Made by a program: the position numbers and the translations under genes. DNA of 49,136 nt, from the NCBI GenBank assembly GCA_022841665.1, contig JALHRB010000025.1, forward strand, positions 1-49,136. The letters are read 5' to 3'. The notes beneath the pieces were generated by a model. That model was given only the letters and a program-made list of their open reading frames with translations. It did not search any database and was not told the origin of the DNA. Positions within the stretch are counted from its first letter, which is position 1; each line of letters starts with the position of its first letter. Positions 16,924 through 20,027 of this stretch are shown one piece after another. The stretch comes from Pseudolabrys sp. (lineage in GTDB: Bacteria; Pseudomonadota; Alphaproteobacteria; Rhizobiales; Xanthobacteraceae).

Positions 16924-17008
16924 GACGCTCACGTCGCAAAATTGTCTGGACCTGGCAAGCTCCGGGGTGGGAAAACCGGCCGGGCGCATGGGCGCCCGCG
17001 GGTCCGCC

Positions 17009-17839
17009 ATGTCTCACCTGGTGAAAACGCTCGACGAAGCCCTTGCGCCGATTACCGACGGCTGCACTTTGGTGGTGCCGCGCGAGGTGTCCGGCGTGCC
17101 GATGGCGGCGACGCGCGCGCTCATCCGGCGCGGCGTCAAGCGATTGCATCTGGTGGCGCTGCCGACCTCCAGCCTGCAGGCCGATCTGCTGATCGGCGCC
17201 GGCTGCGTCGAGACCCTGGAAACAAGCGCCGTAAGCCTGGGCGAGTTCGGCCCGGCGCCGCGCTTTTCCGCCGCCGTCACCGGCGGCAGCATCGCGATGA
17301 AGGACGCCACCTGCCCGGCGCTGCACGCCGCTTTGCAGGCCGCGGAGAAAGGCGTGCCGTTCATGCCGCTGCGCGGGCTGATCGGTTCCGATATTTTGAA
17401 GTACCGTCCCGACTGGAAGGTGATCGACTCGCCGTTCGGCCAGGATTCCAACAAAGCCGATCCCATCGTCCTCCTGCCGGCGATCAAGCCGGACGTGGCG
17501 CTGTTTCATGCAGCCATGGCCGACCGTTTGGGCAACGTGTGGATCGGGCGCCAGCGCGAACTCGCCACCATGGCGCACGCGGCCGTACGCACCGTCGCCA
17601 CCGTCGAGAAGATGCACGACGGCAACCTGCTCGACGATCCGGTCTTGGCGGCGGGCACGCTGCCGGGCTTCTACGTGGAGAGCATCGCGATCGCCGAGCG
17701 CGGCGCCTGGCCGCTGCCGCTGCCGGATTACTACGCCGCCGACGCCGAGCACCTGGCGCTCTATGCGCGCATGGCGGCGACGGCGGAGGGCTTTGCGGAA
17801 TATCTGGACAAGTATGTGTATGAGAAACAGGCGGCGTGA
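17009..17839 (+). CDS. CoA-transferase (class I-like) alpha subunit
   Basis: 276 residues of the glutaconate CoA-transferase A / IpdA type. Typical segments are GCTLVVPREVSGVPMAATRA, HLVALPTSSLQADLLIGAG, RFSAAVTGGSIAMKDATCPA and PDVALFHAAMADRLGNVWIG. It forms a heteromer with the beta subunit downstream. The start at 17009 matches the family N terminus; an in-frame ATG at 16988 is possible. Its TGA stop lies inside an 8-base direct repeat (GTGAACTT) that flanks an inserted element, so the two subunit genes are now separated by 135 bases. Confidence 0.83.
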   Translation: MSHLVKTLDEALAPITDGCTLVVPREVSGVPMAATRALIRRGVKRLHLVALPTSSLQADLLIGAGCVETLETSAVSLGEFGPAPRFSAAVTGGSIAMKDATCPALHAALQAAEKGVPFMPLRGLIGSDILKYRPDWKVIDSPFGQDSNKADPIVLLPAIKPDVALFHAAMADRLGNVWIGRQRELATMAHAAVRTVATVEKMHDGNLLDDPVLAAGTLPGFYVESIAIAERGAWPLPLPDYYAADAEHLALYARMAATAEGFAEYLDKYVYEKQAA

Positions 17840-17982
17840 ACTTTCTTATCCCTCCCCCGCTTGCGGGGGAGGGTGGTCAGCGAAGCTGACCGGGCGGGGG
17901 CGCTTTACGCGTCGCAAGCTTGACCCCACCCGGCTCGCTTCGCTCGCCACCCTCGCCTTTCAGGGGAGGGATAAGTGAACTT
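17836..17982. mobile_element. MITE-like element with 12-bp terminal inverted repeats and 8-bp flanking direct repeats
   Basis: GTGAACTT is present at 17836-17843 and again at 17975-17982. Between them lies a 131-base insert with ends TTATCCCTCCCC (17846-17857) and GGGGAGGGATAA (17963-17974), a perfect inverted repeat. The interior has further stems (CTCCCCCGC-TTGC-GGGGGAG; GTCAGC-GAA-GCTGAC). No coding capacity. The left direct repeat contains the alpha-subunit stop codon and the right one starts with the beta-subunit GTG, so removing the insert restores a GTGA stop/start overlap. Confidence 0.75.
17963..17970 (+). promoter_or_regulatory. Shine-Dalgarno provided by the inserted element
   Basis: GGGGAGGG at 17963-17970, the right terminal repeat of the insert, lies four bases before the GTG start of the CoA-transferase beta subunit. 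Confidence 0.65.
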
Positions 17983-18715
17983 CCGCGACGAAGAACTGCT
18001 CGCCGACGTGATCGCGCGGCTGATCGGTGACGTGCGCCACGTCGCGGTCGGCAACGCCTCGCCGATCCCGGCCACCGCCGCGCTGCTGGCGCGCGAGCGC
18101 GGGCACGGGCGTCCTTACGTGTCGCTGCTCGGCAGCCCGAAGCACACGTTCTGGACCGACGGCGGCCGCGAACTGTTCGACTGCGCCGGCCAGGGCCGCA
18201 TCGACGTGTTCTTCCTGTCGGGCGGGCAGATCGACGGCCACGGCAACATCAATCTCGTCTCCATCGGCGACTACGCGCATCCGAAGGTGCGTTTCCCCGG
18301 CTCGTTCGGCTCGGCGCATCTCTATTACGTGGTGCCGAAGGTGATCCTGTTCCGCACCGAGCATTCGCGCCGCACGCTGGTGCCGGACGTCGACTTCATC
18401 AGCGCGCCCGGCGCGAGTGAGCCGAACGTGTTCCGCACGGGAGGGCCGATCGCGCTCGTGACCAACCGCTGCCTGTTCTCTTTCGCCGACGGCCGCTTCC
18501 GGCTGGAGAGCGTGCATCCCGGCCACACCGTCGAGGAAGTGGTCGAGAACACCGGCTTCGACTTCGAACGACCCGCGCAGGTTCCCGAGACGCCGGCCCC
18601 CTCGCCCGAGACGCTGACGCTGATGCGCGAGACGGTCGCGCCGCAACTCGCCGAGGTCTATCCGCAGTTCGCCGCGCAGGTGTTCGGCGTCGGCCAAGCC
18701 GCTTTCGCGCGCTGA
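17975..18715 (+). CDS. CoA-transferase (class I-like) beta subunit, catalytic Glu motif absent
   Basis: 246 residues of the GctB/IpdB type: FLSGGQIDGHGNINLVSIGD, then YAHPKVRFPGSFGSAHLYYV and a C-terminal FDFERP tail. Where glutaconate CoA-transferase has the ESG motif holding the catalytic glutamate, this protein reads YVSLLGSPKHT (48-58) with no acidic residue. IpdAB, known to hydrolyse a ring-opened steroid CoA intermediate, is the known class I-like example lacking this Glu, so hydrolase activity is more likely than CoA transfer. Start is GTG, with the Shine-Dalgarno supplied by the upstream inserted element. Confidence 0.82.
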   Translation: MNFRDEELLADVIARLIGDVRHVAVGNASPIPATAALLARERGHGRPYVSLLGSPKHTFWTDGGRELFDCAGQGRIDVFFLSGGQIDGHGNINLVSIGDYAHPKVRFPGSFGSAHLYYVVPKVILFRTEHSRRTLVPDVDFISAPGASEPNVFRTGGPIALVTNRCLFSFADGRFRLESVHPGHTVEEVVENTGFDFERPAQVPETPAPSPETLTLMRETVAPQLAEVYPQFAAQVFGVGQAAFAR

Positions 18716-19920: not shown

Positions 19921-20027
19921 TGTCATTCCGGGGCTGGCCGAAGGCCAGAACCCGGAATCCAGAACCGAGTATTGAGCAAGCATCTGGATTCCGGGTTCGC
20001 TCGCTGCGCTCGCGCCCCGGAATGACG
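19921..20027. repeat. Palindromic repeat between the two Gfo/Idh/MocA genes
   Basis: Outer stem GTCATTCCGGGGC (19922-19934) with GCCCCGGAATGAC (20014-20026). An inner 16-bp stem pairs GAACCCGGAATCCAGA with TCTGGATTCCGGGTTC. It ends 14 bases before the next ATG; the GAGAGG ribosome-binding site lies just outside. Confidence 0.85.

Follow-up and report, generated by a model that had tools for sequence, protein, structure and literature searches.

Insertion of a dispersed palindromic repeat between the two subunit genes of a CoA transferase in Pseudolabrys

In the 49,136-nucleotide stretch of Pseudolabrys DNA analysed here (the window), the genes for the alpha and beta subunits of a CoA transferase are separated by a palindromic repeat of 131 bases, and the presence of this repeat is well supported as a real insertion. 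The repeat is a full-length copy of a dispersed family, here called F1; relatives carry the same gene pair uninserted, and the other copies of the family have no clear duplications at their flanks. It is probable, in our view, that an F1 repeat entered a tight alpha/beta junction either without leaving a target duplication that can be recognised or at a date too remote for one to have survived, and that the 8-bp direct repeat around it is coincidental; beta may be read from its GTG with GGGGAGGG upstream. The usual picture of small palindromic repeats places them in slack intergenic DNA, with which this junction contrasts. A single operon junction, followed in 61 relatives, is found in overlapping, abutting and repeat-filled states, and it offers a natural series for understanding how translational coupling outlasts insertion and why certain junctions are invaded and their neighbours not.

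The locus and the repeat family

The window belongs to a 3.85-Mb genome in 125 contigs. Both genes match the domain PF01144 (CoA transferase) in a domain search. NCBIfam gives a single match, to alpha, which at 36.6 bits stays below the cut-off of 128.5, and none to beta, and therefore the name ipdAB/gctAB, suggested for the pair by an earlier reading made from the sequence alone (the sequence-only reading), is not established. At the 5' side of the pair, a CATG at 17008-17011 is common to the alpha ATG on the forward strand and to the start of the longest reading of a methylenetetrahydrofolate reductase-like gene on the reverse strand; the true start of the latter likely lies later.

The sequence-only reading described an insert with an 8-bp repeat on both sides, of which the left copy holds the alpha TGA and the right copy the beta GTG (Table 1), and these letters and coordinates are exact in the window, where TTATCCCTCCCC occurs exactly at the two flanking places only. 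The terminal inverted repeat, which it gave as 12 bp, is indeed perfect, and its length is 13 bp (CTTATCCCTCCCC / GGGGAGGGATAAG, 17845-17857 / 17963-17975) if one counts its last G, which is the G of the beta GTG. The predicted RNA fold of the stretch is one long branched hairpin, at -89 kcal/mol where shuffled sequences average -59.3 (z -6.5, equalled by none of 200 shuffles), and the window has no Rfam match at gathering score.

Table 1. Features of the alpha/beta junction in the window, and other repeats and genes mentioned in the text
Feature	Position	Strand	Remark
CoA-transferase alpha-subunit gene	17009..17839	+	ends ...GCG TGA; TGA at 17837-17839
left GTGAACTT	17836..17843	+	GTGA is alpha end; CTT fits usual element tip CTTTCTTAT
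F1 palindromic repeat, bounds of the sequence-only reading	17844..17974	+	131 bases
terminal inverted repeat, left arm	17845..17857	+	13 bp
F1 core TTAT..ATAA	17846-17974	+	modelled
hairpin 1, CCCTCCCCCGC TT GCGGGGGAGGG	17850..17873	+	
stem 2, GGTCAGC GAA GCTGACC	17875..17891	+	letters differ between copies
GGGCGGGG, long-range partner of 17924-17931	17892..17899	+	GGGTGGGG in most other aligned copies
CCCCACCC, long-range partner of 17892-17899	17924..17931	+	copy alignment
hairpin 4, CCCTCGCC TTTCA GGGGAGGG	17950..17970	+	G in CCCTCGCC breaks one pair
GGGGAGGG, candidate Shine-Dalgarno for beta	17963..17970	+	ends four bases 5' of GTG
right GTGAACTT	17975..17982	+	beta start; the 13-bp inverted repeat ends on its first G
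CoA-transferase beta-subunit gene	17975..18715	+	GTG start at 17975-17977
second palindromic repeat, GTCATTCCGGGG..CCCCGGAATGAC	19922-20026		between two oxidoreductase genes
F1 copy with nested palindrome	L011:1423-1590		
F1 copy with nested palindrome	L015:2349-2516		
F1 copy with nested palindrome	L022:1503-1666		
F1 copy with nested palindrome	L089:2832-2999		
Y1 (RAYT-like) transposase gene	L334:1355-1985		genome G025; between inverted GTAGGGTGGGC stretches

The plan of F1, whose element ends are CTTTCTTATCCCTCC, begins on the 5' side with the hairpin CCCTCCCCC..GGGGGAGGG and a stem that differs in sequence among copies; in the middle, a long-range pairing of GGGTGGGG with CCCCACCC encloses the variable part and is followed by a second variable stem, and the 3' hairpin is CCCTCCCC TTTCA GGGGAGGG. 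The G in CCCTCGCC, which breaks one pair of hairpin 4, is found in the window copy alone among 13 aligned copies of its genome. RNAalifold on the copies of this genome gave 30 pairs with two-sided change in four of them and a covariation credit of -0.13, which is little, so the shape comes mainly from invariant arms. In the loop of stem 2 of certain F1 copies a smaller palindrome, GCGCGTTTACGCGCGTC..GACGCGCTATGG, is nested (Table 1).

To describe the distribution of the family we built a covariance model from 13 own-genome copies, with seed columns aligned by sequence. In the own genome it finds at least 24 distinct places at E <= 1e-8 (at least 29 matches, both strands counted), while a DNA search gives 74 matches and a spaced pattern 16 places. 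At E <= 1e-4 the model has matches in 40 of the 43 genus genomes, and in the order outside the genus four of 120 sampled genomes are matched at E <= 1e-8, with at least 1-3 borderline matches each. Among the best-scoring 136 copies the modal letters are CTTTC to the left of TTAT (38-69%) and GAAAG to the right of ATAA (46-61%). Across the genus, 121 F1 ends come after a gene end, and 80 of these are at most 9 bases away from its stop codon.

Several known repeat systems resemble F1 in part. The RIME and ABC elements of rhizobia are mosaic palindromic intergenic repeats of Hyphomicrobiales, to which F1 is likened by description only, being palindromic, intergenic and from Hyphomicrobiales. MITEs are short, with terminal inverted repeats, many copies, a target duplication and a parent transposon with the same ends. 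F1 is like them in being short, dispersed in many copies and, as judged by length alone, non-coding, with terminal inverted repeats that are perfect over 13 bp in the window and have conserved tips among the best-scoring 136 copies; it is unlike them in that a target duplication was undetected in those copies, apart from a weak excess of 5-6 bp repeats, and that no parent transposon was identified in a search for Y1 transposases. MITEs are the subject of PMC10969869 and PMC6382973.

REPINs are, in PMC3116915, paired REPs that form hairpins. Compared with that description, F1 is likewise short, non-coding, intergenic and multicopy, with inverted conserved ends and a pairing variable middle, and its alignment by sequence contains two inverted REP-like hairpins around a pairing middle; it differs in being longer, at about 130 bases. 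A link of F1 to RAYTs was rejected, since the own genome has no REP-associated (Y1) transposase and no F1 lies beside the Y1 genes of the genus, which occur in 5 of 43 genomes and whose six surrounding loci gave no F1-model match at E <= 0.1. The Y1 gene of genome G025 listed in Table 1 recalls GTAG REPs through its inverted flanking stretches. The CGTC- and GTAG-tagged repeats of PMC3733652 are like F1 palindromic, intergenic, proteobacterial and often touching coding regions, and according to that paper the TAG stop of a gene often comes from a GTAG terminus; the F1 tips, in contrast, are CTTTCTTAT / ATAAGAAAG and carry neither tag. Certain other junction repeats, beginning GTCGTCCCC or GTAGCCCGGG, recall these tagged repeats by eye. 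Br-REP1 and Br-REP2 of Bradyrhizobium (PMC5082802) share with F1 the multi-hairpin form and come from a related bacterial group, but the Br-REP consensus sequences printed there are dissimilar to it; Br-REP2 resembles the second palindromic repeat of the window. In the titles and abstract beginnings of the open-licence literature, searched by topic, no F1-like family is described, and an exact-letter search of that literature with stretches of the repeat gave no related paper. F1 is thus apparently a new genus-level family of about 130 bases with several hairpins, within a known kind of palindromic intergenic repeats.

The junction in relatives

We read the alpha/beta junction in 102 loci, mostly of metagenome-assembled genomes labelled Hyphomicrobiales, Pseudolabrys, Xanthobacteraceae and similar. 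Both genes were present in 79 distinct rows (L116 lacked alpha), and the tree and counts are based on the 61 rows, window included, with beta identity of at least 72%, leaving out the 18 below it; a separate filtered listing, whose filters drop L057 too, has 28 occupied junctions of 75. Uninserted junctions were found in 32 of the 61 rows, and in the other 29 there are 43 to 199 bases between the alpha stop and the implied beta start. The claim that the repeat is an intergenic insertion into a formerly tight, co-directional gene pair is well supported by these uninserted rows. As to what fills the 29 occupied junctions, classified by short patterns and by eye, F1 accounts for six; a mixed class 'F2like' of CCCTCCCC- or CTCCCC-type repeats, which may be kin of F1, has ten rows, and the GGCCGGGC-, GTCGTCCCC-, CTCATCCTGAGG- and GCCCGGG-types have six, four, two and one, respectively. 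On a tree of the alpha and beta proteins, which is not a species tree and may reflect interspecies exchange, the occupied or empty state requires at least 16 changes by parsimony, 11 of them forced by well-supported branches; compared with a shuffled mean of 20.7, this shows the occupied rows to be clustered rather than random. In one supported clade of seven rows all junctions are filled, by four repeat classes.

The uninserted rows take three forms. In 21 of the 32 (L113 among them) a 20-base overlap puts the beta ATG within the TAT GAA/GAC codons that encode the Tyr-Glu/Asp tail of alpha; in seven the genes abut, with TAAGTG in six and TAATTG in one; and four have a 4-base overlap, which is GTGA in L103 and ATGA in L101, L098 and L108, with beta identities of 77-79.5% and two of the four from same-genus genomes. 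An ancestral GTGA overlap, which the sequence-only reading proposed should be looked for in relatives, is therefore not borne out: none of the 20 uninserted rows with beta identity of at least 80% has a 4-base overlap.

Another account of these data is that F1 inserted once, long ago, in a common ancestor of some members of the genus, was inherited by the window species and others, and was later deleted in some rows, leaving the abutting TAA-GTG as a remnant. We hold this possible but rather unlikely. The first 56 core bases are identical between the window and L050, from another species, the copies of L059 and L089 are internally alike by eye, and the abutting junctions recall the right end of the repeat, ATAAGTG. 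However, many F1 copies end in ATAAG, so the TAAG of those junctions can be chance; for G036 and G039, BLAST scores place the junction copy closer to copies at other sites of the same genome than to those of other junctions, and the F1 label requires five changes on the tree, all five forced by supported branches. In the reading that we prefer, an F1 copy would have entered the junction of a tight alpha/beta pair by a mechanism that leaves no recognisable duplication, or whose trace was lost with age; the arrivals at the junction might be several F1 events, or an older one inherited by certain rows and lost by others. The order and function of alpha and beta would be kept, because the repeat fits between the stop of the one and the start of the other.

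Origin of the flanking direct repeat

The sequence-only reading explained the 8-bp repeat by insertion into a GTGA-overlapping pair with a duplication of 8 bp, from an uninserted allele ...GCGGCGTGAACTTCCGC... This, also as a duplication of 10 bp with one mismatch, we consider improbable, although the repeat is exact and lies precisely at the element ends, GTGAACTTTC and GTGAACTTCC agree at 9 of 10 positions, and one distant uninserted relative, L103, does have the GTGA overlap. We compared the left and right flanks of the best-scoring 136 distinct F1 copies, taken from the own genome, other genomes of the genus and the junctions. No fixed target duplication was found in them at any offset; the top z was 2.96, which is unremarkable because 800 length/offset tests were made. 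The window copy alone among the 136 has an exact direct repeat of at least 7 bp in its flanks, and of the non-allelic copies inspected by eye those most alike, for example L152 and L180 from a single genome, have no duplication. Direct repeats of at least 5 bp have a frequency of 13.9% in the 136 true pairs, somewhat above the 9.2% of shuffled pairs, so the flanks may still hold a faint or decayed duplication.

The frequency with which such a repeat arises by chance depends on the site. Wrongly paired flanks among the 136 copies reached 8 bp in 0.1% of 4,000 pairings. At the six F1 junctions, which are from six species, 3 of 30 wrong pairings reached 7-8 bp (two 7, one 8), while the true pairs have 8 (window), 3, 6, 4, 5 and 5 bp; the 6-bp repeat is GCGTGA on both sides in L062, a case that also fits a target duplication. 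An 8-bp repeat is thus much likelier at an alpha/beta junction than elsewhere (1 of 30 against 0.1%), because the gene-end sequence raises the chance. GTGA is the alpha end in 18 of the 61 rows and the beta start in nine. Moreover, as the element tips are CTTTC and GAAAG, with ATAAG at the right end, the left GTGAACTT agrees with the element itself at three of its four final letters (within CTT), and the right copy does so at its first G. On the six-junction control, the GTGA frequencies and the element tips, the direct repeat is most likely a coincidence, mostly homoplasy of gene ends and repeat tips, and we take this as far more credible than a duplication. A perfect 8-bp repeat in the flanks may mislead where the stop, the start and the tips of a repeat have letters in common. 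What stands of the earlier interpretation is a mobile-looking repeat between formerly tight genes; the 8-bp duplication and the GTGA ancestor are unsupported. Relatives without the GTGA overlap and other copies without duplicated flanks, the two observations that the sequence-only reading itself named as speaking against it, were both found.

Translation of beta and apparent recurrence of repeats

It had also been claimed that the repeat replaced the ribosome-binding site of beta, which is possible. The right end is indeed at the expected position; GGGGAGGG ends four bases before GTG in the window and 4-7 bases 5' of the beta start in all six F1 junctions, a spacing well suited to a Shine-Dalgarno sequence, and beta would be translated from GTG with GGGGAGGG in that putative role. 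Against this, folding predicts that GGAGG is hidden in a stem, paired at each of the six F1 junctions, with 16.1 to 20.0 kcal/mol needed to open it. A ribosome finishing alpha would reach about 10 bases beyond the stop codon, over the left arm, and might partly free GGGGAGGG. Holding 15 bases past the alpha stop open in folding lowers the opening cost from 16.1 to 7.0 kcal/mol for the window copy, whereas the other five junctions still require 11.4-16.3 kcal/mol under the modelled ribosome footprint; coupling to the alpha ribosome is thus possible at the window copy, but its support over the F1 junctions in general is weak. With GGAGG predicted paired in six junctions and costly to free in five, the translation part of our reading rests on little. 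As a general ribosome-binding site of F1, GGGGAGGG was rejected, since of 103 ends facing a plausible start codon only 15 have it 0-5 bases beyond ATAA, and several of the 15 are this same alpha/beta junction.

The very stable predicted fold, and a hairpin shape conserved though the letters of stem 2 vary, would also suit a repeat retained between alpha and beta as a regulatory RNA or terminator. We regard this as quite improbable: covariation is nearly nil, and the same site is empty or filled by unlike repeats in relatives, so the junction repeat has no fixed role.

Other tight gene pairs of the window, read in the same genus, serve as controls and indicate how unusual the junction is. More than 40 bases between the genes were found in none of 18 rows for cheR/cheD, none of 18 for cheD/cheB, none of 22 for amidohydrolase/Ldh2 and 3 of 20 for permease/ATPase (five further rows with 832-884 bases left out); for the two downstream oxidoreductases the count is 6 of 22, or 7 of 23 with the window, and for the beta-oxidoreductase gap, an ordinary spacer, 29 of 32. 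The 29 of 61 at alpha/beta against four control pairs gives a Fisher p of about 8e-10, and 1e-7 when the fifth pair is added, a guide only because the rows are related and the control pairs few and chosen by us. The alpha/beta junction seems to be a site at which repeats land again and again. Repeated insertion of repeats into an overlapping gene pair is undescribed in the titles and abstract beginnings of the open-licence literature.

The repeats also enter the genes' own signals, as in L074 and L105, where the repeat supplies the start ATG. We tentatively suggest a wider picture, less likely than its opposite, in which the junction, ancestrally a 20-base overlap, would be a recurrent landing place where unlike palindromic families arrived or replaced each other many times within one bacterial group, their tips being recruited as Shine-Dalgarno sequence (F1), as start codon (L074, L105) or as alpha end and stop (L070, L075), and some insertions duplicating the overlap. 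As for the last point, L064 and L142 keep both the alpha tail and the beta start (MNA, MNG), which relatives encode in one overlapping stretch. In the oxidoreductase pair, whose genes overlap by ATGA in 14 of 22 relatives, L084 and L105 carry a GTCATTCCGGGG-type repeat flanked by two copies of the overlap region: ATGAAGAAG stands on either side in L084, and L105 has both ATGAGAACG and ATGAGGACG. These copies do not touch the repeat core; the two rows illustrate, at a neighbouring gene pair, the general idea of the sequence-only reading. The four cases suggest that certain insertions may copy the gene overlap; if true, such duplication would let a repeat split overlapping genes, each keeping its own copy and neither being broken.

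In L070 and L075, the last codons of alpha and its stop are apparently encoded by the CTCATCCTGAGG-type repeat.
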